Shown: positions 8,719 through 37,979 of the stretch, one piece after another
Position numbering within the stretch: the first letter of the stretch is position 1
How the letters are laid out: each line of letters begins with the position of its first letter
Source of the DNA: a virus
DNA: 64,000 nucleotides
IMG/VR virus record: IMGVR_UViG_3300020061_000004
Location: 59,281 to 123,280 of that record
Strand: one strand, 5' to 3'
Notes under the pieces: generated by a model
Databases searched by the model: none
Told to the model about the DNA's origin: nothing
Seen by the model: only the letters and a program-made list of their open reading frames with translations
Program-made: the position numbers and the translations under genes

Positions 8719-8734
8719 TGTGTTTGTTTGTTGG

Positions 8735-8776
8735 TTTAAAAAAGAAAAGTAGGGAGGTGTTTGTGGCACACCTCCC
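8735..8776 (-). terminator. Terminator after major capsid gene
   Basis: On the minus strand a perfect 9-bp GGGAGGTGT/ACACCTCCC stem is followed by a T-rich tract. It separates MCP from the next gene. Confidence 0.9.
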
Positions 8777-8789
8777 GAAGCACTTAAAA

Positions 8790-11839: not shown

Positions 11840-14515
11840 TTATTTCTTACCATCGTATTTGTTTTTGTTTATTTTGGCTACTTTTAACTTTTCATTCTCT
11901 ACTCTTTCACGAGATTGTAGCTCCTGTTGACGTACTTTTAGATCAGCAGTTTTCATCTGAGCATCTATTACAGCCTTTTCACGAGCTATAGTATTCTTCT
12001 CCCTATCCAATAGCAATTTCTGCTGTCCTACTTCTGCTGCAACAGAAAGCTTATCATATTCCAGAATATCCGGAGTCTGATCAGCGTCTTCATCTTTAAG
12101 ATTATCTGGTTGACGAGAGAAGGTTTGGATATAAGCGATCTTCTCTTTAGAAGCTCTATTCTTATCATTCTCATCAGCTTGGAATGCAAGGTCTGCTTGT
12201 TTCTGCTGAGCTTCACTCTGAATCTGCTGCTGTTGCATATCCATTTGCTGTTGATACTTCTGTTCATTACGAGCCATAGCAACTTCAAGCTGAGCTTTAA
12301 TTTCAGCAGGACTATTAGATGTAATAACAGTAGCAAGATCAACTGGTGATGCTCCAGTATTATTATTAGACATAAATAACTGACGAAGAGATTCAAGTTG
12401 TCTCATATCTTCTTGAGAGTTAGACACATATACGTGAAGATCAGATAATAGGAGTTCTGTGCCATTCATCTTCATGAAAGCTCTACTCATATCTGATTTA
12501 ACATAAGATACTGTTACATCTCTTTCCTTAGACTGTACATACTGTGCAATATCTAAGTTCATCTTTAGTACACGACGCTTATATTCAGAGAACCTAGTAA
12601 AGTAAGATTCTGTCTGAGCATATGACTGAGCAATAGCTTGTTGTGTACCTGTAGCTGTTTCTGAGGCTGCCACTGACCCAAGACGCTGAGGAGTAATACC
12701 TACTTGAGATAGGGCTCTTTGTTCAAAGAACTCCATTATCTTCATTCTGGACATCATCCTTGCAGACTCATCCATATCTACTTCTTTAGGCATCTGTCCA
12801 CCTGGATTAGCACCCTTCATATTCTGGGGTGATGTATCTACAAAGGTGACACCTAAACTCTTAGCAACTAGAAGGAACTTTTCATAGGCATTCTCTCCAC
12901 CCCAGTCTTTAATGTTTGTAAGCATATTCACATCCATGATAAGGAAGCGACCAATTTCACGTTGCATTGTCTGGTAGAGTTGGTTAGCTCCTACATTAAA
13001 TCCAATCTGCCAAGGCTTCATCAAGTCTACAAGAGACATTGATTGAGAGTTTCTAGCATTGAATATCTGTCCACATACTGGTAGCTTCGCATAGTAAGGA
13101 TTGAAATCTCCTCTAAACTGAAATGGAAGAGGACCAGCATTTACATAAATATCTTCTTTTAATTGTGTACCATGTTTACATATCTTAATCCCACGCCAAA
13201 TTTCATTTACCCATGTCCAAGACACAGTATTAATTTGATCATCATTCTCATAGATAGCACTATCAAGTTCTTTAAATCCAGGAGGTACTACAAATGTTTC
13301 ATCTACAAGTTGCTTAGTAACTAAGTTAGTTTCAGGATCGATAAAGGTTACTTTACCTATCTTCTTCTGTGATTTCCAATAGGCTTCTAATACTTTCAGA
13401 TAGCCTCTAGTATTAAGGAAGTATGGATTATGTGTACTAAGTTCTGTAGACATGAAGTCTCCAGTAAAGGTGGGAATATAGGGAGCAGCAGGATTGACAC
13501 CAAAGGTATCAGTCATAAGTTTACCATCTCCATAGTTCTGGTATGGTACTACAGCACCATATGCAATACCCTGTCCATCAGTTCCAGATATCTTACCCAT
13601 TAAGTCCTTAGAGAGTTCCAAGTCTTTAAGGGTAGACTTTTTCATCATATACCCATATCTATCTACAACATCAGATACAGTTAGATATATAATACGTCCT
13701 ACATAGTCACCTTCTTCAGCATGTTCTACTTCAGGACTCTTATGGAAGAATGTATTAACAGGGTTCCAAGTTTCTTGGTTATACCCATTTGATGTCAGAT
13801 AGAAGTGTCTAAATGCACGATCCGCAGTGAGCATATCTTCAAACTCTCTACGTTCTAGTTCAGGAAGATAGAAACGCTGCCTATCAAGTTCAAGTTGGTA
13901 TTGTCCCCATATCTCAGCAGTATCCTGCCAAGAGTATTTCATATACTTCTCTATTTCTGGAGGAGTAAGAGCCTGACGCTGTTGTTCTACTTGTTGTTGA
14001 TATTGCTGTTGTTCTTGAGGAGAATTAAATTGATCCTTATTAGGATTCAATCCCATTTGTGCAAGACGTAAGTTTACTTCATTATTAACCTCTTGCATTA
14101 CATGCTCTAGTAGGAGACGAGTCTTTTCACGAACATAACTATTTGTAGTATTTTCATCATAACCCTTTACTCTAAAGTTATCAGGGCGCTTCTGGTATTC
14201 ACCAGATAAAGTATTGATTACCTGAGAGATAATATCATAGTGACGTAAGTAGTTAGGAATTTCAAATTCTCTGGAAAGCTGATGTACCATATCAGCATAT
14301 TCATCCTGTTCTAGGTAGTGAGAGAAAATGAATTTACCCTTAACCATCTCATAGTTTTCTATAAGACTCATGTTAGAGTAGTATTGAAGAGTTCCTATTC
14401 TCTCCAAAGAGTCCATATTGTCCTTAATCCACTGAGCATTTTTCTTGGTTAAGGGAACCATTTGGGCTGGTAAGGCCACATTAGGGTTCGTATTAATTGC
14501 CGGACTTATATTCAT
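11840..14515 (-). CDS. Portal protein
   Basis: 891 aa, in the range of crAss-like portals. It lies just downstream of TerL, the usual place for the dodecameric ring through which DNA is packaged. The middle is rich in aromatic and acidic residues. From about residue 740 a long Gln/Glu/Lys-rich region (QQQMDMQQQQ) predicts an extended coiled coil, and the C-terminus is basic (KINKNKYDGKK). A weak promoter-like TACATTTG box sits 20 nt upstream, without a proper TTG at -33. Confidence 0.8.
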   Translation of the reverse strand: MNISPAINTNPNVALPAQMVPLTKKNAQWIKDNMDSLERIGTLQYYSNMSLIENYEMVKGKFIFSHYLEQDEYADMVHQLSREFEIPNYLRHYDIISQVINTLSGEYQKRPDNFRVKGYDENTTNSYVREKTRLLLEHVMQEVNNEVNLRLAQMGLNPNKDQFNSPQEQQQYQQQVEQQRQALTPPEIEKYMKYSWQDTAEIWGQYQLELDRQRFYLPELERREFEDMLTADRAFRHFYLTSNGYNQETWNPVNTFFHKSPEVEHAEEGDYVGRIIYLTVSDVVDRYGYMMKKSTLKDLELSKDLMGKISGTDGQGIAYGAVVPYQNYGDGKLMTDTFGVNPAAPYIPTFTGDFMSTELSTHNPYFLNTRGYLKVLEAYWKSQKKIGKVTFIDPETNLVTKQLVDETFVVPPGFKELDSAIYENDDQINTVSWTWVNEIWRGIKICKHGTQLKEDIYVNAGPLPFQFRGDFNPYYAKLPVCGQIFNARNSQSMSLVDLMKPWQIGFNVGANQLYQTMQREIGRFLIMDVNMLTNIKDWGGENAYEKFLLVAKSLGVTFVDTSPQNMKGANPGGQMPKEVDMDESARMMSRMKIMEFFEQRALSQVGITPQRLGSVAASETATGTQQAIAQSYAQTESYFTRFSEYKRRVLKMNLDIAQYVQSKERDVTVSYVKSDMSRAFMKMNGTELLLSDLHVYVSNSQEDMRQLESLRQLFMSNNNTGASPVDLATVITSNSPAEIKAQLEVAMARNEQKYQQQMDMQQQQIQSEAQQKQADLAFQADENDKNRASKEKIAYIQTFSRQPDNLKDEDADQTPDILEYDKLSVAAEVGQQKLLLDREKNTIAREKAVIDAQMKTADLKVRQQELQSRERVENEKLKVAKINKNKYDGKK

Positions 14516-16978: not shown

Positions 16979-17444
16979 CTATTTGGTTTTGAGCACTAGG
17001 TTGGATTTGAACCAACGGTTGTACGGTTTTGCAGACCGGTGCCTTGGACCCCTCAGCCACTAGTGCAGGTTTCTGTGCGAAATCTAAATACTTTGATATT
17101 AAAATCTTATTCTTAAGAACGTAATCAAATATCTTCTCCACTATATATCCTGTTATATATGCTCTTGTCTCACCTAGTTTCTCTACTTCAGTCTTCTCGA
17201 TGATGTAGTCTACAATGTGGGACACTTCATGTACAATGCAGTTGGGAGTGAGTCCATGTAACTGATAGAAGATGAAGTATTTATGATCAGGTGTATCTAG
17301 TGATAAACCATAATAGCCTCCTTCTGCAAGAGGCTCCATACCATACTTCTTAAGATATCTTGGTACTATCTTTTCAATCTCTTCATCTATAATAATAGTG
17401 AGGTTGAACTCAAAGATAGGTATCTTTATAGTTGTCTTATACAT
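16959..17444 (-). CDS. HExxH putative zinc peptidase-like protein, reads through tRNA-Cys
   Basis: 161 aa. The centre has IVHEVSHIVDY (about residues 70-80), an HExxH zinc-peptidase signature, with a later Glu (GETRAYITGY) as possible third ligand. Substrate unknown. The last about 37 codons are the tRNA-Cys gene (16992-17066) read on the same strand, so the C-terminal tail is tRNA-derived. Excision of that tRNA would remove the stop codon from the mRNA. It also overlaps the next gene by 20 nt. Either the tRNA was inserted into the gene end or the two coexist as alternative products. Confidence 0.6.
   Translation of the reverse strand: MYKTTIKIPIFEFNLTIIIDEEIEKIVPRYLKKYGMEPLAEGGYYGLSLDTPDHKYFIFYQLHGLTPNCIVHEVSHIVDYIIEKTEVEKLGETRAYITGYIVEKIFDYVLKNKILISKYLDFAQKPALVAEGSKAPVCKTVQPLVQIQPSAQNQIDGSKES
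16992..17066 (-). tRNA. tRNA-Cys(GCA)
   Basis: 75 nt with acceptor GCACTAG/CTAGTGC, T arm with TTCAAAT loop, and anticodon loop CTGCAAA giving GCA. It lies within the 3' end of the HExxH gene. Confidence 0.9.
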
Positions 17445-17457
17445 AGAAGATATTTGG

Positions 17458-17529
17458 AAGCGGGAGCGGGATTTGAACCCGCGACCTTTGAGTTATGAGC
17501 CCAACGAGCTACCTCTGCTCTACCCCGCT
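17458..17529 (-). tRNA. tRNA-Met(CAT)
   Basis: 72 nt with acceptor AGCGGGG/TCCCGCT and anticodon loop CTCATAA giving CAT. Initiator, elongator or Ile2 identity cannot be told by eye. Confidence 0.9.
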
Positions 17530-17535
17530 ATATTA

Positions 17536-17763
17536 TTAATCTTCTATTTGTGTTGCCTTATCAGCTAGATCAGTCTCAAGTTCATCACGATAGTTTTCAA
17601 ACTTCTTGAGAAGTTCTTCATCACTCCAGTTATAATTACCTGTTTGGGGGCGCATCACATGCACAATATGCTGTGAGATACTATACTGGGGAAACAACTC
17701 TACTATCTCTACGAAATGATGAAAAATCTGTTGCTTGATCTGAGTTTTTTGTTTATTGCTCAT
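17536..17763 (-). CDS. Hypothetical 75-aa protein
   Basis: A Gln/His-rich short helical protein whose ATG overlaps the end of the Cys-rich gene upstream by 11 nt. Its stop lies 6 nt before tRNA-Met. No domain recognised. Confidence 0.6.
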   Translation of the reverse strand: MSNKQKTQIKQQIFHHFVEIVELFPQYSISQHIVHVMRPQTGNYNWSDEELLKKFENYRDELETDLADKATQIED

Positions 17764-18181
17764 TGGTTTTTGTTTTGTATGCTGTCCATTTAAGTTCCAT
17801 ATTGATGTTGTTATTCTGATTAAAGGCTAACAACTCTTTATCCTTGCAAGTACAATTTGATAAGTTATCAAAATTGCAACAATCAATTCCACAATTTGCT
17901 TCTAGTGAAGCTGTCTTTCTAGTGATTGTACATCCACACATAATACAATGTTCATCAAATCTATCTGTCTTATATCCAGTAGATACTGCATTTGAACTAT
18001 TGAATGGACACGTTGCACATATAAATCTTCTTCTTGCTATTTCTGCTTGTTCATCTTCAGGAAGGATATCATATTGCAATTTCACTTGATTCACTATCCC
18101 CTCCACTATCAAGTCTGCATTCTGTACTACTGTCGGCAGTAGTTTTACATATTCTATTAGTCCTTTTAGCATAAGCTTCAT
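17753..18181 (-). CDS. Zinc-ribbon-like Cys-rich protein
   Basis: 142 aa. Residues about 55-110 contain CATCPF, CIMCGCT, CGIDCCN and CTCKDKE, about ten Cys arranged as CxxC knuckles, so it very likely binds one or two zinc ions. The N-terminus is helical. It overlaps the preceding IHF-like ORF by 113 nt, large but possible for a phage. The role may be DNA binding or packaging-related; that is inference from place. Confidence 0.6.
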   Translation of the reverse strand: MKLMLKGLIEYVKLLPTVVQNADLIVEGIVNQVKLQYDILPEDEQAEIARRRFICATCPFNSSNAVSTGYKTDRFDEHCIMCGCTITRKTASLEANCGIDCCNFDNLSNCTCKDKELLAFNQNNNINMELKWTAYKTKTNEQ

Positions 18182-18512
18182 AATACTGTGTTGCTAATGT
18201 ATTCCTCTGTATTAAGGCTTTTCTAAGTTTGCCATAGTTTACTTCGAGGAGCAGGTCTTTTGTTGATTCTTTATACCTGATAGACTTCTTTATATTCCTA
18301 ATCTTATTAATTGTGGACTTTATAAAGTAGTCTATCTTACGTTTACTTGTTGTTATTGTTCCTAAGTACTTGATACTCACCGATGTAGACTCAAGGCCAC
18401 TTAGTTTTTTCCTTACTTCTTTCCAATAAAAATCATTCACACTATCAACAATCTTCTCTTCTATTCCCATCTCACGGGATACTATCTTGCTGATTACTTG
18501 AATAGTTTTCAT
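18069..18512 (-). CDS. HU/IHF-like DNA-binding protein
   Basis: 147 aa. The first about 80 residues (helical start, VDSVNDFYWKEVRKKL, then SVSIKYLGTITTSKRK) look like the N-terminal half of an HU/IHF-type protein as annotated near terminase genes of crAss-like phages. The basic part ends about residue 115 and the tail is Ser/Asp-rich. Probably DNA-bending or packaging-related; fold assignment is by eye. Confidence 0.5.
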   Translation of the reverse strand: MKTIQVISKIVSREMGIEEKIVDSVNDFYWKEVRKKLSGLESTSVSIKYLGTITTSKRKIDYFIKSTINKIRNIKKSIRYKESTKDLLLEVNYGKLRKALIQRNTLATQYYEAYAKRTNRICKTTADSSTECRLDSGGDSESSEIAI

Positions 18513-18853
18513 TAGCTATTATCTATTTTAATCAGTACACCAATCACAGGATTAACAGGAAAGTCTAAGTCTGCATTAAGTGTGTAGTCTTTAGAATCTA
18601 CAGGACGCACTAACATTCCAAACTTCTTAAGTTTACTCATTGTATTCTTCAGACTATCCTCTGTTTTGAGAATATTTGAAGAAAGAATAAGGTCTTTAGT
18701 TTTTCTATTAATCCTATATACCATGAAATAAGCAAGGACTGTGAGTTCAGTATCAGAAAGTCGTATATTCTTGAGTAAACAAAAGATACCAATTACTTTC
18801 TTTGCCTGTTCCACCTTGCTATTGGTTTTAAGTTTGATTTTTACAAGCTGCAT
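18512..18853 (-). CDS. Hypothetical protein, first gene of TerL operon
   Basis: 113 aa from the ATG at 18853 (MQLVKIKL), 16 nt after a consensus promoter; an upstream in-frame TTG is rejected. Predicted helices around residues 15-75 resemble a winged-helix or replication-initiator-type regulator, but no motif settles it. It shares one base with the next gene, so packaging genes probably start here. Confidence 0.55.
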   Translation of the reverse strand: MQLVKIKLKTNSKVEQAKKVIGIFCLLKNIRLSDTELTVLAYFMVYRINRKTKDLILSSNILKTEDSLKNTMSKLKKFGMLVRPVDSKDYTLNADLDFPVNPVIGVLIKIDNS

Positions 18854-18869
18854 TTCCTTAATTTCTACA

Positions 18870-18900
18870 CAAAGATAAGTAATTGATTTCAATTAACCAA
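18870..18900 (-). promoter_or_regulatory. Promoter of the terminase-side operon
   Basis: On the minus strand TTG (18898-18900), 20 nt, TATCTTTG (18870-18877). Confidence 0.75.
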
Positions 18901-18910
18901 ATCTTTTTCA

Positions 18911-19396
18911 CTAATTATGATTATTTGCTGTAATTAAGTCTCTATATCTCTCATTTACAATCTTAGCCTGAGCTGATGAAGGTATTCTTCCTGATTCTAA
19001 TAGGGAAAGGATACTTCTGAAGTAAGGAGCAGGGGATATTTGTAATATCTTCTTACAACGCTTCTTATATTCCTCTATAACTCCTTGTATTCTAGTGGTA
19101 TCCTTTGATTTATTCTTCTTTACTCTTCTGGTTGATGAAGGTTTCTTCATGAAAGAAGCTATTGTTCTTTTCTCATGTGCTTTTGAATGACAATCTGCAC
19201 AAAGAGTAACTAAAGCTTTCAAAGGATATTCCCAAGGACTCTTATCTTTGATGTAATAGAGATGATGAACATGCAACATACAATTTGTAGCCTTACAATT
19301 CCTGCATGTATACTTATCACGGTTTAAAACCTGAACCCTAACTACATCAACCCAGCGTGTATCAAGTAATAATATTTTATATTCTTCTTTTGTCAT
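18911..19396 (-). CDS. HNH endonuclease
   Basis: 161 aa from ATG at 19396 (MTKEEYK). An HNH domain spans about residues 20-70: CRNC, then LHVHHLYYI and CADCHSKAHE, the two Cys pairs and the His-Asn-like active centre of the fold. The C-terminal half is basic and may contact DNA. It stands alone between the packaging operon and the tRNA array, typical of a free-standing homing endonuclease, though a packaging-linked HNH is also possible. A longer reading from 19510 crosses a terminator and is rejected. Confidence 0.75.
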   Translation of the reverse strand: MTKEEYKILLLDTRWVDVVRVQVLNRDKYTCRNCKATNCMLHVHHLYYIKDKSPWEYPLKALVTLCADCHSKAHEKRTIASFMKKPSSTRRVKKNKSKDTTRIQGVIEEYKKRCKKILQISPAPYFRSILSLLESGRIPSSAQAKIVNERYRDLITANNHN

Positions 19397-19478
19397 AATA
19401 TTCTCTGTTGAGTATGCAATACTACGGAAAATTATTGACATTATGCCACTTTTTTCAATATTTATTTTTATATAATAT

Positions 19479-19500
19479 AAAAACCCCTCACTTGGAGGGG
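19479..19500 (-). terminator. Terminator after 48-aa membrane protein
   Basis: On the minus strand CCCCTC/GAGGGG with 5-nt loop and a T tract. Confidence 0.85.
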
Positions 19501-19524
19501 CTTGCAACAAAAGAAGGTAGCAGA

Positions 19525-19671
19525 TTAGACTTTTTTAGCATCTGCTTCGACAGTAGAAGCTACTTCTTCAACCTTTTCAATAATCGGCTCGATCTTTTCC
19601 TTGTTATTACGGTAAATTAATATACCTGCAATGAACAAACCAAGAGATACAATAGCAACGAGTGGAACCAT
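19525..19671 (-). CDS. Small single-pass membrane protein
   Basis: 48 aa. Residues 2-20 are a hydrophobic segment; the rest is an acidic/basic amphipathic helix ending DAKKV. It has its own promoter (19690-19720) and terminator (19479-19500), so it is a one-gene unit. Small phage proteins of this form include holins and superinfection factors; neither can be shown here. Confidence 0.75.
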   Translation of the reverse strand: MVPLVAIVSLGLFIAGILIYRNNKEKIEPIIEKVEEVASTVEADAKKV

Positions 19672-19689
19672 ATGTTTCAAATTTAGATA

Positions 19690-19720
19690 CAAAGATAATA
19701 ACTTCTTAGGAAATTACCAA
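19690..19720 (-). promoter_or_regulatory. Promoter for small membrane protein
   Basis: On the minus strand TTG (19718-19720), 20 nt, TATCTTTG (19690-19697). Confidence 0.75.
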
Positions 19721-19724
19721 ATGG

Positions 19725-19795
19725 CACGGGAGGCTTGATTCGAACAAACATCAAAGGTTTTGGAGACCTCTATTCTACCATTGAACTACTCCCGT
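19725..19795 (-). tRNA. tRNA-Trp(CCA)
   Basis: 71 nt. Acceptor ACGGGAG/CTCCCGT, anticodon loop CTCCAAA, T loop TTCGAAT. Confidence 0.9.
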
Positions 19796-19799
19796 ATGG

Positions 19800-19871
19800 G
19801 GTGAAAGGACGGTAATGATCCGTCTTCTATGCCTTCACAGGGCACCGCATCACCTTAATGCTTCAGACACC
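19800..19871 (-). tRNA. tRNA-His(GTG), poorly paired acceptor
   Basis: D stem GCAT/ATGC, anticodon arm GTGCC-CTGTGAA-GGCAT and T arm pair well, with a 5' extra G as in His tRNAs. The acceptor GTGTCTG/CTTTCAC has three mismatches, so it may be decayed or need editing. Confidence 0.65.
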
Positions 19872-19880
19872 ATGTATTAT

Positions 19881-19953
19881 GTACCCGATCATGGGAACGA
19901 TCCACATTCTCCTGCTTCAAAGGCAGGCATAATACCTTTATACTACTCGGGTA
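19881..19953 (-). tRNA. tRNA-Gln(TTG)
   Basis: 73 nt. Acceptor TACCCGA/TCGGGTA, anticodon arm CCTGC-CTTTGAA-GCAGG. Confidence 0.85.
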
Positions 19954-19957
19954 TAAG

Positions 19958-20028
19958 TTGGGGAAGATTGAATCGAACAACCACCAAAGGTGTCAGAGAC
20001 CTTTGTACTACCATTATACGATTCCCCA
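19958..20028 (-). tRNA. tRNA-Gln(CTG)
   Basis: 71 nt. Acceptor TGGGGAA/TTCCCCA, anticodon loop CTCTGAC giving CTG, the second Gln tRNA of the array. Confidence 0.85.
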
Positions 20029-20074
20029 AAATGAAGGTTCCTTACTCAATGAAGTATGCCTACAACCCAAAATG

Positions 20075-20147
20075 TGGTACAGGTTAGTTATGATCTAACT
20101 CCTCGGGATTTTCAGTCCCGCGCTTCTACCAAGTTAGCTTCTGTACC
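20075..20147 (-). tRNA. tRNA-Phe(GAA)
   Basis: 73 nt. Acceptor GGTACAG/CTG TACC, anticodon arm CGGGA-CTGAAAA-TCCCG. Confidence 0.9.
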
Positions 20148-20152
20148 ATAAG

Positions 20153-20226
20153 AGCCCTAGCCGGAACTCGAAGCCGGTCTGTTCCGCATTACAAGTGCGG
20201 CGCTGCACCATATCAGCATCTCGGGC
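20153..20226 (-). tRNA. tRNA-Thr(TGT)
   Basis: 74 nt. Anticodon arm CCGCA-CTTGTAA-TGCGG; acceptor GCCCGAG/CTAGGGC with one mismatch. Confidence 0.85.
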
Positions 20227-20275
20227 AGTTGACATTTGATTTTCACATAAAACAAAGTTTCCAAACAAAACATCG

Positions 20276-20376
20276 CTAATGGGGTACGATTCGAACGTAC
20301 ATGCAGAGGTTATTAATTCCCTATATCTGCACCACCGAGAAAAGGAGGCGAGTCTGCCAAGTTCCAACACCCATTA
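20276..20376 (-). tRNA. Unusual long class II tRNA-like gene, isotype unclear
   Basis: 101 nt between a perfect 7-bp acceptor TAATGGG/CCCATTA. T arm is standard (GTACG-TTCGAAT-CGTAC). The anticodon arm CCTCC/GGTGG has a central T-T mismatch and loop TTTTCTC, nominally reading TTC. The variable arm is about 30 nt with a long TGCAGA/TCTGCA stem. A regular Glu(TTC) tRNA exists elsewhere, so this is an odd or decayed member. Confidence 0.5.
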
Positions 20377-20381
20377 ATCTG

Positions 20382-20453
20382 CGGGGAAGGTATGGATCGA
20401 ACATACGACCTGAGAGTTAACAGCTCCCTGCTCTACCGCTGAGCTACTTCCCC
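20382..20453 (-). tRNA. tRNA-Asn(GTT)
   Basis: 72 nt. Acceptor GGGGAAG/CTTCCCC, anticodon loop CTGTTAA. Confidence 0.9.
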
Positions 20454-20510
20454 AAAATAGGGTGTAAGGGTTCTTCCTTACACAGGGTGCGCTTACCCCA
20501 CTTCCTATTG
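20454..20510 (-). other. Structured spacer in tRNA array
   Basis: No tRNA fits here. It contains a perfect 8-bp hairpin (20462-20469 with 20476-20483), so the precursor transcript carries a stable stem between tRNAs. Function unknown. Confidence 0.4.
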
Positions 20511-20586
20511 CCGGCAATACGGGATTTGAACCCGTGGTCTTCCCGTAGACAGCGGGACAGGGACAACCAGACTCCCCTAAATGCCG
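20511..20586 (-). tRNA. tRNA-Asp(GTC)
   Basis: 76 nt. Anticodon arm TCCCG-CTGTCTA-CGGGA, T arm ACGGG-TTCAAAT-CCCGT. Confidence 0.9.
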
Positions 20587-20594
20587 AATAAAAG

Positions 20595-20665
20595 TCTAGC
20601 TTGTCTGAATCGAACAGCTCTTCATGCTTCCAAGGCACGGGTGCTACCATCACACCCCAAACTAG
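20595..20665 (-). tRNA. tRNA-Pro(TGG)
   Basis: 71 nt. Acceptor CTAGTTT/AAGCTAG, anticodon arm CGTGC-CTTGGAA-GCATG. First tRNA of the left block; a terminator sits directly upstream. Confidence 0.9.
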
Positions 20666-20668
20666 AAA

Positions 20669-20694
20669 TAAAAAACCCTCCTTTAAGGGGAGGG
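20669..20694 (-). terminator. Terminator between leader ORF and tRNA-Pro block
   Basis: On the minus strand CCCTCC/GGAGGG with 7-nt loop and a six-T tract ends 4 nt before tRNA-Pro, so the left tRNA block depends on read-through or an unseen promoter. Confidence 0.85.
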
Positions 20695-20721
20695 CTTGTA
20701 TGAACACGCTTGAAAATTTAG

Positions 20722-20802
20722 TTATCGTGATATAATATAGCCTCTCCCAACGATTGTATCGGGTTGAAAATTAAAGGTATTATTATGCCAATTCTGAATC
20801 AT
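20722..20802 (-). CDS. Possible 26-aa leader peptide upstream of tRNA block
   Basis: MIQNWHNN... to ...YIISR. The ATG lies 4 nt after a perfect promoter box, and a terminator follows. It is either a small protein, a leader peptide in an attenuator, or chance coding in a short RNA. No family. Confidence 0.4.
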   Translation of the reverse strand: MIQNWHNNTFNFQPDTIVGRGYIISR

Positions 20803-20806
20803 ACAG

Positions 20807-20837
20807 CAAAGATAAGAAGAATATTTGATATTACCAA
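20807..20837 (-). promoter_or_regulatory. Promoter of left tRNA block leader
   Basis: On the minus strand TTG (20835-20837), 20 nt, TATCTTTG (20807-20814). Confidence 0.8.
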
Positions 20838-20857
20838 ATTTCTTATAAAAATAAATG

Positions 20858-20940
20858 TGGGAGCTGATGGAGTTGAACCACCCGAGTCCTAAGACAGCAG
20901 ATTTACAGTCTGCCCCGCTACCCCTACGGTATAAACTCCC
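20858..20940 (-). tRNA. tRNA-Tyr(GTA)
   Basis: 83 nt, long variable arm. Acceptor GGGAGTT/AGCTCCC, anticodon arm GCAGA-CTGTAAA-TCTGC. Confidence 0.9.
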
Positions 20941-21025
20941 AAATAGCTACCCTCGGTATTTCCGAGACCAGCTTACAATATAGGGTCACTCACTTAAGAG
21001 GCTCACTAGTTTCCTAGTTACTTTA
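20941..21025 (-). other. Structured spacer in tRNA array
   Basis: 85 nt without a canonical tRNA. Two perfect 5-bp hairpins (20952-20966 and 21005-21018, the latter with a GAAA loop) suggest a folded RNA, maybe a tRNA relic. Confidence 0.35.
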
Positions 21026-21114
21026 GAGGAAGGTGTGGGATTTGAACCCACGGAACTTTTACATCCTCCGGTTTTCAAGACCGGTGCAATCAGCCAGACT
21101 CTGCCAACCTTCCT
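21026..21114 (-). tRNA. tRNA-Ser(TGA)
   Basis: 89 nt. Acceptor AGGAAGG/CCTTCCT, anticodon arm CCGGT-CTTGAAA-ACCGG. Confidence 0.9.
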
Positions 21115-21187
21115 AAAGCTCACCCCGTAGGTGAGCAGCGCAATTAAGGCTTTGCGATGCCATTACAGCCACCCTTTGGGCAGTGTG
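21115..21187 (-). other. Structured spacer in tRNA array
   Basis: 73 nt with a perfect 7-bp hairpin (21118-21124 with 21130-21136). No anticodon arm found. Confidence 0.35.
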
Positions 21188-21272
21188 AGGAGAGTAGAAG
21201 ATTCGAACTTCTGGGGCTTTAACACCCAACACTTTAGCAAAGTGTTACGATAAACCTCTCTGACAACTCTCC
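21188..21272 (-). tRNA. tRNA-Ser(GCT)
   Basis: 85 nt. Acceptor GGAGAGT/ACTCTCC, anticodon arm ACACT-TTGCTAA-AGTGT. Confidence 0.9.
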
Positions 21273-21276
21273 TTAT

Positions 21277-21358
21277 GTATCCCTAACATGATTTGAACAT
21301 GCACCCCGAAGGAGCAGATTTTAAGTCTGCCGCGTCTACCAGTTTCGCCATAGAGATA
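21277..21358 (-). tRNA. tRNA-Leu(TAA)
   Basis: 82 nt, class II. Anticodon arm GCAGA-CTTAAAA-TCTGC. Confidence 0.9.
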
Positions 21359-21363
21359 AGTTG

Positions 21364-21448
21364 TAGGTATAGTAAGAGTCGAACTTACACGCCCATTACA
21401 GGCATCAGTTTCTAAGACTGACGTGTCTACCAATTCCACCATATACCC
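21364..21448 (-). tRNA. tRNA-Leu(TAG)
   Basis: 85 nt, class II. Anticodon arm TCAGT-CTTAGAA-ACTGA. First tRNA of the middle block. Confidence 0.9.
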
Positions 21449-21455
21449 ATAAAAT

Positions 21456-21485
21456 AAAAACCCCCGCTATCCGAATTAGCAGGGG
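21456..21485 (-). terminator. Terminator between leader and tRNA-Leu block
   Basis: On the minus strand CCCC-(T)GCTA pairs with TAGCGGGG around a 7-nt loop, then a T tract. It ends 7 nt before tRNA-Leu(TAG). Confidence 0.85.
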
Positions 21486-21528
21486 AGTGACGATATTGTC
21501 TTTTACGAACGCTTCTTTATCACATACT

Positions 21529-21657
21529 TTACCCCTTACTATCGAGTGATAGATAACTTAAGGAGAGCAAATATGAGTTTAAATTCTTCATTTTAATTAG
21601 GGGTCTCAGGAAAGATATAGAAACAATCGTGTGTACAATAAATCTATATCTATCCAT
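21529..21657 (-). CDS. Possible 42-aa leader ORF upstream of tRNA-Leu block
   Basis: MDRYRFIVHT... to ...SLDSKG, hydrophobic in the middle. It starts 8 nt after a perfect promoter box and is followed by a terminator, like the leaders at 20722 and 22376. May be a real small protein or chance. Confidence 0.35.
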   Translation of the reverse strand: MDRYRFIVHTIVSISFLRPLIKMKNLNSYLLSLSYLSLDSKG

Positions 21658-21665
21658 CAACACAA

Positions 21666-21696
21666 CAAAGGTAATACAAATAATTGATATTACCAA
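21666..21696 (-). promoter_or_regulatory. Promoter of middle tRNA block leader
   Basis: On the minus strand TTG (21694-21696), 20 nt, TACCTTTG (21666-21673). Confidence 0.8.
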
Positions 21697-21705
21697 ATTT
21701 AAGTG

Positions 21706-21778
21706 TAGTAATGATGGGAGTTGAACCCACTACCCCGGAGGTATCAGCTCCGTACTCTAACCGTTGAGCTACACTACT
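21706..21778 (-). tRNA. tRNA-Ile(GAT)
   Basis: 73 nt. Anticodon arm CGGAG-CTGATAC-CTCCG. Confidence 0.9.
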
Positions 21779-21779
21779 A

Positions 21780-21853
21780 GTGGACTGAGATGGAATTGAA
21801 CCATCGACTTGCACATTATGAGTGTGCTGCTCTACCCCTGAGCTATCAGTCCA
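21780..21853 (-). tRNA. tRNA-Met(CAT), second copy
   Basis: 74 nt. Acceptor TGGACTG/CAGTCCA, anticodon arm GCACA-CTCATAA-TGTGC. It differs from the copy at 17458, so the two may be initiator, elongator or Ile2 types. Confidence 0.9.
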
Positions 21854-21859
21854 TAAAAG

Positions 21860-21931
21860 TACTCTGTGACGGTTACGATCCGTCTTCCACGCTTTGAAGG
21901 AGCGTTATCCTAGCCACTAGACGAACAGAGC
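21860..21931 (-). tRNA. tRNA-Glu(TTC) with C33
   Basis: 72 nt. Acceptor GCTCTGT/ACAGAGT. Anticodon arm ACGCT-CCTTCAA-AGCGT has C where U33 is nearly universal. Confidence 0.8.
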
Positions 21932-21938
21932 ATATATG

Positions 21939-22010
21939 AGCACCAGTGGGTAATCGAAACCCAATCCGCGCATTGGAAGTGCGCTATAATAGCCGTTATA
22001 CGACTGATGC
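21939..22010 (-). tRNA. tRNA-Gly(TCC)
   Basis: 72 nt. Acceptor GCATCAG/CTGGTGC, anticodon arm GCGCA-CTTCCAA-TGCGC. Confidence 0.9.
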
Positions 22011-22014
22011 ATTG

Positions 22015-22088
22015 GTAGAGATACCAAGAATCAAACTTGGGTCTAGGGATTAGAAGGCCCTCGTTCTATTCATTGAACTACATCTCTA
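22015..22088 (-). tRNA. tRNA-Arg(TCT)
   Basis: 74 nt. Acceptor TAGAGAT/ATCTCTA, anticodon loop CTTCTAA. Confidence 0.85.
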
Positions 22089-22090
22089 TG

Positions 22091-22165
22091 GAGGACACAG
22101 AAAGAGTCAAACTTTCGTTCCCTGCTTCGTAGGCAGGAGTTCTATTCAGCTGAACTATGCGTCCT
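22091..22165 (-). tRNA. tRNA-Arg(ACG)
   Basis: 75 nt. Acceptor AGGACGC/GTGTCCT, anticodon arm CCTGC-CTACGAA-GCAGG. Confidence 0.9.
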
Positions 22166-22168
22166 AAT

Positions 22169-22226
22169 ACTGGGCCAGAGTATACAGGTTACTGTCCCTC
22201 TATGAATTTCACATAGTTACCCCAGT
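22169..22226 (-). other. tRNA-like remnant or structured spacer
   Basis: 58 nt closed by ACTGGG/CCCAGT with an inner CTATG/CATAG hairpin whose loop lacks U33. Resembles a tRNA that lost an arm. Confidence 0.4.
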
Positions 22227-22235
22227 AGAATACTG

Positions 22236-22308
22236 TCTCCCCGTTCGGAATCGAACCGAACCCCACGGTTTAAAAGACCGTTGCCTACAACCAGTTTGCT
22301 ACAAGGAG
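22236..22308 (-). tRNA. tRNA-Lys(TTT)
   Basis: 73 nt. Acceptor CTCCTTG/CGGGGAG, anticodon arm ACGGT-CTTTTAA-ACCGT. First tRNA of the right block. Confidence 0.9.
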
Positions 22309-25499: not shown

Positions 25500-25934
25500 C
25501 ATCCCTTCGGGGAGGCTGCTTATACAATACCTCAGACTAGTGTGAGATATTTATAGGGTATTGCTCTATAAATACCTCATATCTGGGTGATGTATATACG
25601 CAGTATTTATACACTATTCAATACCAGCTTGATTCTTTACGAGGACAGAAGTAGACAGCTTGACTGCGCATACCGTTAGTAAATACACTTATATATATGT
25701 ATACAATCATCAATGGCTGCTTAATTCCTACTAAGGATGCAGCTGAATGGGACAAGAAATGACTAATATAATACACACATGATGAGAATTGTGTGTGTAT
25801 TTTTCTTATTTCTATTGTCATAACCAATTGATTGTCAGTGTGTTGATGAGATAGGTAGGTAAAATAGTATGTATTTGAGGATATATTTAACATTAGTATA
25901 AAACACATTCCTAATATTTAATACTATTGCATTT
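25500..25934 (+). other. 435-nt stretch with hairpins and no convincing large gene
   Basis: Contains a 13-bp hairpin (25544-25556 with 25566-25578, one mismatch), a smaller CTCA/TGAG stem inside 25531-25546, and a 21-codon ORF at 25697-25762 that is too short to trust. A terminator lies at 25769-25805. Most likely untranslated RNA or leader. Confidence 0.4.
25769..25805 (+). terminator. Terminator
   Basis: ATACACACA/TGTGTGTAT stem (25771-25779 with 25792-25800) followed by TTTTC. Confidence 0.75.
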
Positions 25935-26185: not shown

Positions 26186-26218
26186 AAGAGAGGGTATTTC
26201 TATACTCTCTCTATTTTT
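26186..26218 (+). terminator. Terminator
   Basis: AGAGAG/CTCTCT stem with inner TAT/ATA pairs and a following ATTTTTA tract. Confidence 0.7.
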
Positions 26219-29216: not shown

Positions 29217-29250
29217 TTGATATAAAATAAAGAACGTTCCGGCGGCATGG

Positions 29251-29287
29251 AGAAGAGCTAAGAAATTAGCTCTTCTTCTATTTTTTA
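29251..29287 (+). terminator. Strong terminator
   Basis: Perfect 11-bp AGAAGAGCTAA/TTAGCTCTTCT stem with GAAA loop and a T tract. Confidence 0.9.
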
Positions 29288-30224: not shown

Positions 30225-30241
30225 TGACGGCAAACTACCGG

Positions 30242-30274
30242 GGGAGTGGTATCAATGACCACTCCCTTTTATTT
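30242..30274 (+). terminator. Terminator
   Basis: Perfect 9-bp GGGAGTGGT/ACCACTCCC stem, then TTTTATTT. Confidence 0.85.
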
Positions 30275-30328: not shown

Positions 30329-30361
30329 AAGCTGGATGTTTCTACATCCGGCTTATTTTTA
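30329..30361 (+). terminator. Second terminator before the 200-aa membrane gene
   Basis: AAGCTGGATG/CATCCGGCTT stem followed by ATTTTTA. Confidence 0.75.
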
Positions 30362-30383: not shown

Positions 30384-30986
30384 ATGAAGGTAGAAATATC
30401 ACTTCTGTCATGGCATGTTAAGGTATATAAATGGTTTTACCATACACATTCTGTGCCAGTATCTCTTTGTAAGTATTTTTGGAAAACAGCTTTTGCTACA
30501 ATCATAGCGCCTTTTCTGCTACTGCTATCATTACCAAACTTTGTAATAATACATTATTTCAAAGGATGGAGATGGTTTATTCATCAGGTAGATAGAGTAT
30601 CTCCTAAGCATTTTGCTTTTGCTGGTGCTTTATTGTATGGTGCAGCGTGGATATTTACACACACTATCTTTTTCATTCTGGCTCTCATTCAGCATCATCA
30701 TATCACCACCAATCAGACAGTATCTTTTGCAATGACTGTAGTATCTACTATTATGATAATAGTAATATTTGTAGCTAATAAGTTTTATAATTATAAAACT
30801 GATCAAGAAAATCGGCTTTATACTCAATTTCGCCGTGCAAATCCTGAATTGGGATGGAGAGAATTCTATGAAGAATCCAAAAAGCGCAAATGGTATAGGA
30901 GATTTAATCTTCCCAATTCGCTACTTGTTAAAGCCATTATAGCATGGTATAACAAAAGTTGCCCTATTATTGAGTGGACACGTTAA
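30384..30986 (+). CDS. Multi-pass membrane protein
   Basis: 200 aa with three hydrophobic spans (about 32-58, 73-98 and 110-130) and a basic C-terminal third (SKKRKWYRRF). Unknown family; likely in the host inner membrane. It is followed directly by the structured RNA region. Confidence 0.6.
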   Translation: MKVEISLLSWHVKVYKWFYHTHSVPVSLCKYFWKTAFATIIAPFLLLLSLPNFVIIHYFKGWRWFIHQVDRVSPKHFAFAGALLYGAAWIFTHTIFFILALIQHHHITTNQTVSFAMTVVSTIMIIVIFVANKFYNYKTDQENRLYTQFRRANPELGWREFYEESKKRKWYRRFNLPNSLLVKAIIAWYNKSCPIIEWTR

Positions 30987-30989
30987 CTC

Positions 30990-31625
30990 TGCCCTAAGAA
31001 TATAGGCGGTTCCTATTAACTAAGTGGGTGATAACCAAAGATTACAAGATGTAGGTCTTCTTATAATCCTAATAATACACCTTCTGAATACTCATAGTGT
31101 AGAAGACCACAGCTATTGTGAGAGCTAAGATGCCGATAGTGATACGGCTTTAATGCTGGGAATACCTTCGAGAAGTGGGCAACGGGGAAACTTCTCATTT
31201 TTGATACTCAGGTTATATTCAATAGGCTGCATGTATAAGGCGTCAGTTCATGAGCTGTTTATACTTGCAGGGAAATAGTACTAACCAAGTGCCGGATATA
31301 CTATCAGTTATATACTGTATAATCTGGGTATCATTAACTTATTAAAGATTATATAGTATCATTCTGTTGGATTCAGATAAGCTCAGGTAAACAGATAACG
31401 CTGGCCTTTCTTTCAAGGGCTATATAATCTTTAACTTCTTAAGCTCCTATACACCTTATTGATATATTAAGCCCATAGCATGAGGATGGTCAGGCTAAGC
31501 ACATACAACGCTTGAATAGGTAAATGGGACATGTAATCAAGTTGTGATAGTTACATGTTGGGTAGTGCTTAGGATGGATTAATAAGTGAGGCCAGATTGC
31601 CCTCTGTATAGGAGCTTATTTTAAA
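30990..31625 (+). ncRNA. Large highly structured non-coding RNA candidate
   Basis: About 640 nt with no credible ORF and many exact inverted repeats: 15 bp (31342-31356 with 31420-31434), 13 bp (31440-31452 with 31606-31618), 8 bp (31495-31502 with 31565-31572), 8 bp (31529-31536 with 31551-31558), 8 bp (31054-31061 with 31101-31108), 7 bp (31170-31176 with 31190-31196), 6 bp plus TGCA ends (31228-31038-type arm spanning 31228-31269). The helices are nested, as in the giant ornate phage RNAs GOLLD and ROOL. Family unassigned. A long helix then ATTTTAAA ends it. Confidence 0.8.
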
Positions 31626-31635
31626 CTTTATTATT

Positions 31636-31881
31636 ATGAAAACAATAGATACTACAATAGGTAAAATTCCTGAAATACAGCATTTGTTTGTAAAACTAAT
31701 AGCTGACAATGGCAATGGAATCAAAGGAGATATGAATATACTCAAAGATTCTACTGAATCTAAGGATGATAAAATCATATTCATGTATCCAAATGAATAT
31801 GGAGGATTTTCTCGTGGATCAATAAGTAAAGATCATGTATTATTTATTGATGGTAAAACCTTAAAAGAATTAAATTTTTAA
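31636..31881 (+). CDS. Hypothetical 81-aa protein
   Basis: Begins 18 nt after the structured RNA, with start MKTIDTTIGK. Mixed composition and an acidic Asp/Lys-rich middle. No family. Confidence 0.55.
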   Translation: MKTIDTTIGKIPEIQHLFVKLIADNGNGIKGDMNILKDSTESKDDKIIFMYPNEYGGFSRGSISKDHVLFIDGKTLKELNF

Positions 31882-31899: not shown

Positions 31900-32187
31900 A
31901 TGGATAAAATAGACTTAGATGCATTATTAAAAGAGTTCGTATTTGAAGATGAATATGGAGATGATTGTATTACTGTTAATACTGCCAAAGAATGTATGCG
32001 AAAACTTGTTCATCAAGCTCTTGTATTAGCTACTGAGAAAGCTCAGCTTGTTGGTACATGCGTTCATCAAGCATGGAGACCTGATGTATCTGATGATTCT
32101 GTTTATGTGGCTAATTCAAATGGACCAGATTATATTTATAGAGTAGATAAACAATCTATTCTTGACATTGAAAAATTGATTATATGA
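31900..32187 (+). CDS. Hypothetical protein, paralogue of next gene
   Basis: 95 aa. Shares KIDL at the start, a central A/K-x-x-C-M helix followed by HQALVLATEKA, and the end DKQSILDIEKL with the 81-aa gene at 32184, so the two are tandem duplicates. Function unknown; helical, acidic. Confidence 0.6.
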   Translation: MDKIDLDALLKEFVFEDEYGDDCITVNTAKECMRKLVHQALVLATEKAQLVGTCVHQAWRPDVSDDSVYVANSNGPDYIYRVDKQSILDIEKLII

Positions 32188-32429
32188 ATAACAAGATAGA
32201 CTTAAATAGTATTATAGCTGAGGTAAATAAGCTTCCTAAATTCAATGGGGGAGTATATACTGAGGCTCAATATGCTAAAAAATGTATGGAAATAGCTATC
32301 CATAAAACTTTACTATTGGCTAGTGAGAATGCTAAAATGAAGGCACAGAAAGGTGGAGGAATTGATGATATATTCTGGGTAATAGATAAACAATCTATTC
32401 TGGACATAGATAAACTTATTGTCGATTAA
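32184..32429 (+). CDS. Hypothetical protein, paralogue of previous gene
   Basis: 81 aa, overlapping the previous stop by 4 nt. Same layout: KIDL start, central KKCM helix with HKTLLLASENA, and end DKQSILDIDKL. The middle is shorter than in its relative. Function unknown. Confidence 0.6.
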   Translation: MNNKIDLNSIIAEVNKLPKFNGGVYTEAQYAKKCMEIAIHKTLLLASENAKMKAQKGGGIDDIFWVIDKQSILDIDKLIVD

Positions 32430-34306: not shown

Positions 34307-34544
34307 TGGAGAGCGAATAGATCATCTTGTACAAGAAGTAATTGATAGAGCCCAGTATCATGCTGGATTTCTTGATTTCTTAGAGATGTTGTTAAAAGAT
34401 TATGAATCTCCTTTCGAATGGCTTGACACACCAGATGGAAGAGTAAGAACATTAAAACCTCATTTCGTTAAAACAAATTCAAATGGCAATAATATTGAAT
34501 CTGAGACCGGGACTGATAACGGATCAGAATTACAAAGCCTTTAA
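34263..34544 (+). CDS. Hypothetical 93-aa protein
   Basis: Overlaps the DUF922 gene by 44 nt and the PRPP-synthetase gene by 62 nt. Helical middle (RIDHLVQEVIDRAQYH). No family recognised; the second large overlap makes the exact end uncertain. Confidence 0.5.
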   Translation: MQTNLAPDYVKFVDNGERIDHLVQEVIDRAQYHAGFLDFLEMLLKDYESPFEWLDTPDGRVRTLKPHFVKTNSNGNNIESETGTDNGSELQSL

Positions 34545-35394
34545 GTTTCCGGGTGGTGAACTACATTTCATCTTAAGCGATTCATTCAAATATATTCTGA
34601 ATGAGAGCAATGATGATATTCATGTTTATGCAGGAGTAAATTCTGCTGAGGACCTTATTCTGTTGTGTATTGCTGTAGAGACAATAGCAAAGACCTATAC
34701 TAATGAAATTCATGTAGTATTTGCTTATATGCCCTATCAGCAAGCAGATAGAGACTTCTCTGAAGGTGAAAGTTTTAGTCTTAAAACCATAACAAACATT
34801 CTTAATGGACTACCGGTACAGTCGTTCACCATTTATGATCCGCATTCTGATGTATCTCCTGCATTGCTGCGTAATTGTCAGGTTATTACTAACCATAACT
34901 ACATCAAAGAAGTAGTAGATAGTATTGTACATGAGGATTTTCAGGAGGAACTTGTTATTCTTTCTCCGGATGCTGGAGCATACAAGAAGATATTCAAACT
35001 TGCTGAAGCAATTAAGTTTGATGGTGGGATTGAAACTGCCAATAAATATCGTGATATAAGAAGTGGAGACCTTAAAGTGAGGTTCTCCTGTGACGATTTT
35101 AATGGCAGAGATGTTCTCATCGTTGATGACATCTGTATCGGCGGTGCTACATTTATTGCTCTTGCGGAAGAGCTTTTGGATAAGAATGTGGGAAAACTGT
35201 ATTTAGCAGTATCTCATGGTATATTCTCCAGAGGATTTGGAGAACTCGGTAACTATTTTTCGAAGATATATACTACCAATTCACGGCACTCTGAATATGG
35301 TGATCTTATTGATGATTGGAATATTAATCATGCTCCTCGCACCAATAAATATCACACAGATGAGTTTGAGCTGGCAGTACATTCCATTATTTAA
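34483..35394 (+). CDS. PRPP-synthetase-family enzyme (Prs, possible ADPR-pyrophosphate synthetase)
   Basis: 303 aa, near the family norm. Prs enzymes transfer pyrophosphate from ATP to ribose 5-phosphate. Motifs: PYQQADRD (84-91), DPHSD (119-123), SPDAG (161-165) and the PRPP loop VDDICIGGAT (214-223). The cassette also encodes a NAMPT-family enzyme. In phages such a pair has been shown to be NARP1, where the Prs-like partner (Adps) pyrophosphorylates ADP-ribose and the NAMPT-like partner (Namat) adds nicotinamide to remake NAD+. Which substrate is used cannot be read here. Confidence 0.85.
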   Translation: MAIILNLRPGLITDQNYKAFKFPGGELHFILSDSFKYILNESNDDIHVYAGVNSAEDLILLCIAVETIAKTYTNEIHVVFAYMPYQQADRDFSEGESFSLKTITNILNGLPVQSFTIYDPHSDVSPALLRNCQVITNHNYIKEVVDSIVHEDFQEELVILSPDAGAYKKIFKLAEAIKFDGGIETANKYRDIRSGDLKVRFSCDDFNGRDVLIVDDICIGGATFIALAEELLDKNVGKLYLAVSHGIFSRGFGELGNYFSKIYTTNSRHSEYGDLIDDWNINHAPRTNKYHTDEFELAVHSII

Positions 35395-36365: not shown

Positions 36366-37979
36366 ATGTCTAACGCAGCACACAAAATCGACTTTTATAA
36401 ATCTGGACACAAAGTCCAGTATCCTGAAAATACAACACTCATCTATTCCAATCTTACTCCTCGAACGAGTAGAATACCCGGAATTGATCATGTTGTGTTC
36501 TTTGGGATGCAAGCAGTTATCCTTAAATTTCTCATTTACGATTGGAGAAAAGGATTTTTTAATCGTGATAAAGAATCTGTATTACATTCCTATAAACGTA
36601 GGCTTGATAATGCATTGGGTAAGGATGTAGTAGATATTAGCCACATAGCTGCTCTTTACGATCTGGGCTATCTTCCATTGGAAATTAAAGCCCTGCCTGA
36701 AGGAACTCTGGTGCCTATTAAGGTTCCTGTATTCACTATTAAGAATACCAAGCCTGAGTTCTTCTGGCTGGTAAACTATCTTGAAAGTGCTATATCAAAT
36801 CTGATATGGAAGCCTATCACTTCTGCAACATTAGCCTTCAACTTTCGCAAGAACTTTGAGGACTTTTATGCACAGACAATAGGAGAAAATATTCCTGATG
36901 GTCCTGTTATGTTTCAAGGACATGATTTTTCCTATCGTGGTATGTCAGGTGATTGGGATGCTGAAGCATCTGGTGCGGGTCATCTACTATCCTTCTGGGG
37001 AACTGATACTGTACCTGCAATTGATTTCCTCGAAGACTATTACTTTGCTGATAGTGATAAGGAAATGATTGGTTGTAGTGTTCCGGCAACAGAGCATTCT
37101 GTTATGTGTATGGGAGGTAAGGAAGATGAAATTACTACCTTCCGTAAGCTCATCACTGAGACATACCCTTCCGGTATTGTTTCCATTGTCTCTGACACAT
37201 GGGACTTCTGGAAGGTAGTAACGGAATATCTGCCTATTCTGAAGGATGAAATAACCAATCGTAAAGGTAAAGTAGTAATTCGTCCTGATAGTGGCGATCC
37301 TTATCGTATTATTTGTGGCTATATGCCTGAAGAACTTGTGGAAAGAGACGGAAAGTTATATTTTACTGAAGAGGTATGGAATGAAGAACATACAGAATCA
37401 AGATACAAAACTGATTCTAAATCATTAGAAATCTGGCAAGTAAGGGGACTTATCCAGTGCTTATGGGATACATTTGGTGGTAGTATGAGTACTCTGGGAT
37501 ATCGTATCTTATCTGAGAAGATAGGCGCTATCTATGGTGACTCTATAAACCTCACCAATCAGGTACAAATCTTACAGGGATTGAAGCGTAAAGGCTTTGC
37601 ATCTACTAACATTGTACTTGGTATTGGTTCCTATACTTATGAGTATCAGACTCGTGATACCTTTGGGTTTGCAATGAAGGCTACTTATGGTGAAGTAGAA
37701 GAAGCGGAAGCTAGGGAAGATATGGGTTCAGGATATACAGTAAAAACTGTAGGTCGTGAAATCTTCAAAGACCCCAAGACTGATAGTGGTATGAAGAAGT
37801 CTGCTCGTGGCTTGCTTCAGGTATTCGAAGACGAGAACAATGAACTACACCTGAAAGACCAGTGTACTTGGGAAGAAGAACAGCAGGGATTGTTGCAAAC
37901 CGTCTTTCTGGACGGACAGCTAATAGCTCCTATATCTCTCTCAGAGATACGCAATCGTGTTAATTCGTATATCATTTAA
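36366..37979 (+). CDS. Nicotinamide phosphoribosyltransferase family (NAMPT/Namat)
   Basis: 537 aa, somewhat longer than usual (about 480). The N-terminal DFYKSGHK (9-16), TDTVPAIDFL, SVPATEHSV and PDSGDPYRI motifs are all NAMPT hallmarks. NAMPT joins nicotinamide to PRPP to give NMN; the NARP1 variant (Namat) uses ADPR-pyrophosphate to give NAD+ directly. No NMN adenylyltransferase is seen in the window, which favours the direct route. A terminator follows. Confidence 0.85.
   Translation: MSNAAHKIDFYKSGHKVQYPENTTLIYSNLTPRTSRIPGIDHVVFFGMQAVILKFLIYDWRKGFFNRDKESVLHSYKRRLDNALGKDVVDISHIAALYDLGYLPLEIKALPEGTLVPIKVPVFTIKNTKPEFFWLVNYLESAISNLIWKPITSATLAFNFRKNFEDFYAQTIGENIPDGPVMFQGHDFSYRGMSGDWDAEASGAGHLLSFWGTDTVPAIDFLEDYYFADSDKEMIGCSVPATEHSVMCMGGKEDEITTFRKLITETYPSGIVSIVSDTWDFWKVVTEYLPILKDEITNRKGKVVIRPDSGDPYRIICGYMPEELVERDGKLYFTEEVWNEEHTESRYKTDSKSLEIWQVRGLIQCLWDTFGGSMSTLGYRILSEKIGAIYGDSINLTNQVQILQGLKRKGFASTNIVLGIGSYTYEYQTRDTFGFAMKATYGEVEEAEAREDMGSGYTVKTVGREIFKDPKTDSGMKKSARGLLQVFEDENNELHLKDQCTWEEEQQGLLQTVFLDGQLIAPISLSEIRNRVNSYII

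Follow-up and report, generated by a model that had tools for sequence, protein, structure and literature searches.

A candidate orphan large structured RNA in the early arm of a crAss-like phage genome

In the tightly packed early arm of the phage genome studied here, 649 bases separate a stop codon (30986) from the next start codon (31636). What, if anything, does this gap encode? Unless another genome is named, positions are those of the window, i.e. the whole stretch of 64,000 bases that was analysed, which covers bases 59281 to 123280 of a virus record 123,280 bases long. The portal protein of this phage (genome G000) matches phrog_6547, and similar portals are found in crAss-like phages of Bacteroides, Flavobacterium, Cellulophaga, and others. 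The source genome is that of a large crAss-like phage; among annotated phages, Leptolyngbya phage Lbo-JY46 comes closest in its portal protein (45%; MCP 55%). Late genes run leftward and early genes rightward from ∼25 kb. A series of strong plus-strand terminator-like hairpins occurs between early genes at 25770-25801, 26187-26212, 29249-29278, 30240-30268, and 30329-30354; the scanned region contains 17 terminator-like sites, versus 7.8 in shuffles. Elsewhere in the window, genes for PRPP synthetase and nicotinamide phosphoribosyltransferase lie near each other (34483-35394 and 36366-37979), a pair that suggests a NAD salvage pathway, possibly serving in counter-defence.

An earlier note had described ∼640 nt without an ORF at 30990-31625, and this was borne out. 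No ORF of at least 60 aa is present on the plus strand between 30986 and 31636, and the sole ORF overlapping the gap is a 71-aa ORF on the minus strand, whose end enters from the next gene. Because recoding is frequent among crAss-like phages, it matters that stop codons occur throughout all six frames of the gap even when TAG or TGA is taken as a sense codon. Long frames are absent under both TAG=Q and TGA=W, so that a protein gene with such recoding was rejected. Period-3 power within the gap is 0.13-0.62; in 63 CDS windows from the same arm, the median is 2.32 and the lowest value 0.79. A pseudogene was rejected on this missing periodicity, together with the absence of tblastx similarity to any relative. 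A group I or group II intron was also rejected, since no gene is interrupted: the upstream protein aligns to the last residues of its ortholog, and the downstream ORF starts afresh. In addition, the group II intron D1-D4 and D5/D6 models show no match, either at gathering or at E<=10. The stretch 30990-31625 is therefore non-coding.

What the gap does contain is a set of long helices, formed by strands designated S1 to S6 (Table 1). Two of these are perfect, with 15 bp (S3:S4) and 14 bp (S5:S6), and a third (S1:S2) runs continuously for 16 bp with two G.U pairs. In dinucleotide-preserving shuffles, helices of at least 11 bp occurred 0.02 times on average, and helices of at least 12 bp were found in 0 of 100. 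When 636-nt windows were ranked across the whole 123-kb genome, the region came first of 386 for helices of at least 13 bp. As assessed by a whole-genome scan, it is also the sole site with at least two helices of at least 14 bp containing no more than two G.U pairs each. The perfect helices of up to 15 bp that had been reported are thus present, but the description of them as nested holds only in part, because the 15-bp and 14-bp helices sit next to each other, each in a domain of its own.

Inverted repeats of this kind, perfect over 14 and 15 bp, would also fit an element acting at the DNA level, i.e. a replication origin, a packaging signal, or an inverted-repeat transposable element. We find this improbable. 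GC skew reaches its minimum and turns at ∼25 kb, not at 30990-31625, which argues against an origin, there is no obvious target-site duplication, and no second copy of the region was found within its own genome. Moreover, the 16-bp S1:S2 helix relies on two G.U pairs that are formed only by plus-strand RNA. These pairs, together with the fact that all neighbouring genes lie on the plus strand, are the reason why this strand is preferred for the candidate RNA.

Folding energy is not what supports the case for a structured RNA, which is made by the long helices and the missing coding signal. The whole region has a minimum free energy (MFE) of −176 kcal/mol, with a z score of −3.1 for the plus strand and an approximately equal −3.3 for the reverse strand against its own shuffles (20 shuffles each), and a 649-nt version of the region gives −2.2. 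Windows of 300 nt within the region have z scores of −0.7 to −2.5, which is ordinary given an arm mean of −1.85. The folding energy of the region is thus only modestly unusual, and unexceptional beside the rest of the arm.

Table 1. Predicted features of the candidate RNA and its flanking genes (window coordinates)
Feature	Position	Strand	Basis
Upstream gene, 200-aa membrane protein, phrog_944	30384..30986	+	ORF list, family match
Candidate orphan large structured RNA, two domains	30990..31622	+	ORF-free, no period-3, helix enrichment, z −3.1
5' domain, ∼445 nt	30990..31437	+	MFE model, z −3.15
Helix 31050-31060/31102-31111, 10 bp plus bulge	31050..31111	+	mean pair probability 0.96
7-bp hairpin GAGAAGT/ACTTCTC	31170..31196	+	mean pair probability 0.98
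S1:S2 helix 31202-31217/31318-31333	31202..31333	+	probability 0.98; helix alone −19.3 kcal/mol
11-bp stem inside S1:S2	31227-31238/31259-31270	+	pairing model
Alternative S2:S3 helix, 14 bp, one G.U	31312-31325/31346-31359	+	helix scan, ensemble folding
S3:S4 perfect 15-bp helix, 63-nt loop	31342-31356/31420-31434	+	helix search
3' domain of 179 nt; closing helix S5:S6, 14 bp, perfect (31440-31453/31605-31618, 151-nt loop)	31440..31618	+	helix search, MFE
Inner helices of 3' domain	31455-31462/31579-31586 and 31496-31502/31565-31571	+	pairing model
Downstream gene, 81 aa, without family	31636..31881	+	ORF list

In the predicted fold, the 5' domain is closed by pairs 30991-30995/31416-31420 and 31004-31007/31404-31407. 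S3:S4 is absent from this minimum-energy fold (probability ∼0.02) and costs 4.1 kcal/mol to force, whereas an ensemble in which both S1:S2 and S3:S4 are forced lies 2.8 kcal/mol above the free ensemble; in our view, these costs do not exceed the error of the energy model. S3 is complementary both to S4 and to S2, which also pairs with S1, and S2:S3 is mutually exclusive with both S1:S2 and S3:S4. As an observation on the sequence, this layout resembles an attenuator and would also suit an exchange, in cis or in trans, between copies of the RNA. In the model, mutually exclusive long helices would permit switch-like or intermolecular use.

Such exclusive pairing is also what would be expected of a cis-acting element, either a long leader or a control region between cistrons, in which S1:S2 plus S3:S4 on the one hand, and S2:S3 on the other, would switch the gene at 31636 and later genes. 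Alternatively, the element would protect the 3' end of the membrane-protein message; in either case, no separate RNA would accumulate. The gap lies between two same-strand genes, a T-rich stretch follows S6, and we saw no convincing promoter or terminator belonging to the region itself, promoter-like matches in the arm being no more frequent than in shuffles. However, 640 nt is long for an element of this kind, neither S3:S4 nor S5:S6 is a terminator hairpin in view of the size of their loops, and folding with S2:S3 lies 6.5 kcal/mol above the free ensemble. Furthermore, the genes downstream have no known function pointing to a need for such control. We therefore consider this explanation unlikely, if credible. 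Two adjoining small genes just downstream (31900-32429) have the look of tandem paralogues, with common ends (e.g. DKQSILDI.KLI).

Is the region found in other genomes? No homologue was detected by blastn in 50,697 phage records or in plasmids, by nhmmer --max in ∼3.2 Mb of viral contigs that were either related or pattern-matched, in protein-anchored or 15-mer pattern scans of IMG/VR, or when GTDB was scanned with an 18-mer. GTDB also returned nothing for the MCP, and no second copy was picked up by covariance models built from the single sequence, either for the 3' domain or for the S1:S2 domain. There was no homologue either in 396 genomes of one bacterial phylum, the nine matches of 23-45 nt obtained there (E 0.001-0.01 per genome) being at chance level. 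The searched collections may omit records very near the window, so that close relatives may exist unseen. Since a second member was not found, a new family is not demonstrable.

A detectable copy of the candidate RNA was seen neither in any of seven viral contigs of the same group that were fetched whole (G001-G007) nor in Lbo-JY46. One of the contigs, G007 (L003), is syntenic across the site. Its ortholog of the membrane protein (2075-2671) ends at the same aligned residue as the window protein (IIEWTR* / FIEWKH*) and is directly followed by unrelated small ORFs, the RNA being absent there, which makes the boundary sharp. In the matching interval of G001 and G003, there is neither a detectable membrane-protein counterpart nor a long ORF-free gap. 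Because it is absent from the matching site in these three contigs, the RNA looks like a lineage-specific cassette.

A site that varies between relatives, with no conserved copy in those searched and a folding energy ordinary for the genome, could also hold decayed or hypervariable filler DNA, the remnant of a replaced gene cassette that makes no product. We regard this as doubtful, because coding periodicity is entirely gone, the relatives offer no tblastx similarity, and the long helices are strongly above chance and would not be produced by decay.

Long ORF-free gaps were also seen in related phages. Lbo-JY46 (L085) has an unannotated 593-nt gap without period-3 signal in its early arm (8411-9003), which is a candidate counterpart of the window RNA without sequence similarity. 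Another stretch suspected by its size and place (12195-12841) was dropped because its sequence seemed repetitive and rich in AT and might hold small ORFs. G004 (L133) has a 796-nt ORF-free gap on the minus strand (4758-3963), which folds strongly (z −5.9) and has four GCATTAAC boxes, all on one strand. After one short ORF, it is followed by a Pistol ribozyme (RF02679, 44.6 bits; 3536-3479, minus strand). Neither the G004 gap nor the 8411-9003 gap has detectable sequence in common with the window RNA. Large non-coding RNAs may recur across this phage group, for which these gaps are leads only. In G005 (L137), an ORF-free gap contains a tRNA-like gene (11883-11754, minus strand) with >50 extra nt in its D loop, according to the cmscan alignment.

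Does the candidate belong to a known RNA family? ROOL and GOLLD are phage RNAs of a similar size class (PMC12286853), and membership of one of them had been raised as a possibility. When the window was scanned against Rfam at gathering thresholds, nothing but tRNAs elsewhere in the window was found, and at E<=10 there were only four chance matches to unrelated families, far below threshold. The ROOL covariance model (RF03087, gathering 99.1 bits) gave no match in G000 at E<=10, even with the whole genome and permissive filters, although in the same pipeline it recognised the ROOL known from plasmid pMP118, with 130.4 bits. The GOLLD model (RF02032, 416 positions, gathering 150 bits), which was run without a true positive control, gave no match in the whole genome at E<=10 either. 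Because there is no covariance-model match, we file the candidate under neither ROOL nor GOLLD. That it is a ROOL or GOLLD diverged beyond the Rfam models would agree with its size (∼633 nt), its phage setting, and the tRNA island in the same phage, but is highly improbable given these searches and an architecture that was matched to neither family, with two domains of which the 3' one is short and closed.

Taken together, these findings show that the region is real, non-coding, helix-rich, and single-copy. Judging from its sequence, it probably serves as the gene for a large, structured, orphan RNA. Hence, of what the earlier note had proposed, a large structured non-coding RNA in the early arm of a phage stands as the best reading, whereas membership of ROOL or GOLLD is not supported. 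Such an RNA would probably be transcribed within the early transcript, because neither a terminator nor a gap parts the region, which begins 3 nt past the upstream stop codon, from the preceding gene. It would then be released from that transcript by processing and persist in a folded form with two domains. Finally, it may work in the manner of ROOL and GOLLD, i.e. as a stable and abundant folded particle and not as a message. In this proposal, orientation and folding are predictions from sequence, and transcription, processing, stability, and function are argued by analogy. We give an even chance to the full proposal, namely a single-copy plus-strand gene for a ∼630-nt large structured non-coding RNA that works in a ROOL/GOLLD-like way.

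A bolder idea, which we put forward tentatively, is that this RNA represents the first member of a new class of large RNAs in phages, unrelated to ROOL and GOLLD, in which S1-S4 would form two exclusive folds, or pair in cis and in trans to enable assembly. In the same arm, other phages of the lineage might have large RNAs that are not homologous to it, such as in the Lbo-JY46 and G004 gaps. Both ROOL and GOLLD assemble into cages that exceed the ribosome in size; what these large RNAs do for the phage is unknown, and whether caging is common among large natural RNAs is an open question (PMC12286853). If the idea is true, cage behaviour could be tested independently in a crAss-like phage, on a large RNA unrelated to these two. 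The gap of similar size in Lbo-JY46, a cultured relative with a named laboratory host, is a possible laboratory entry point, although without detectable common sequence.

How does the candidate compare with known systems? An ORF-less group II intron of ∼600 nt, also in a phage setting (PMC12350094), is similar in size, in setting, and in having no ORF. The most abundant transcript of phage ICP1 is a ∼800-nt non-coding RNA (PMC7567579), which likewise comes from a lytic phage and from a locus for a large RNA that is unclassified and has no ORF. The ICP1 RNA is a demonstrated transcript, whereas that of the window is a prediction from sequence, and the two were compared only through the search of the phage collection. 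GOLLD resembles the candidate in being large, phage-borne, and divided into a 5' and a 3' region. However, many GOLLDs exceed 800 nt, whereas the candidate is shorter (∼633 nt in a gap of 649 nt), with a 3' domain of just 179 nt that has no detectable relatives. GOLLD, for its part, forms a 14-mer nanocage and increases during lysis. ROOL is found in phages and prophages, measures about 570-660 nt, adopts an elaborate fold, and often lies near tRNA islands (PMC12286853). The candidate differs from it in having no model match and no known homologues. The tRNA island of this phage (22 tRNAs with small ORFs interspersed, 16991-22308) is ∼8.7 kb away on the minus, i.e. opposite, strand. The candidate is ORF-free, phage-borne, and within the length range used for ROOL (near 574-660 nt), whose own hallmarks are an octameric RNA nanocage and high abundance.
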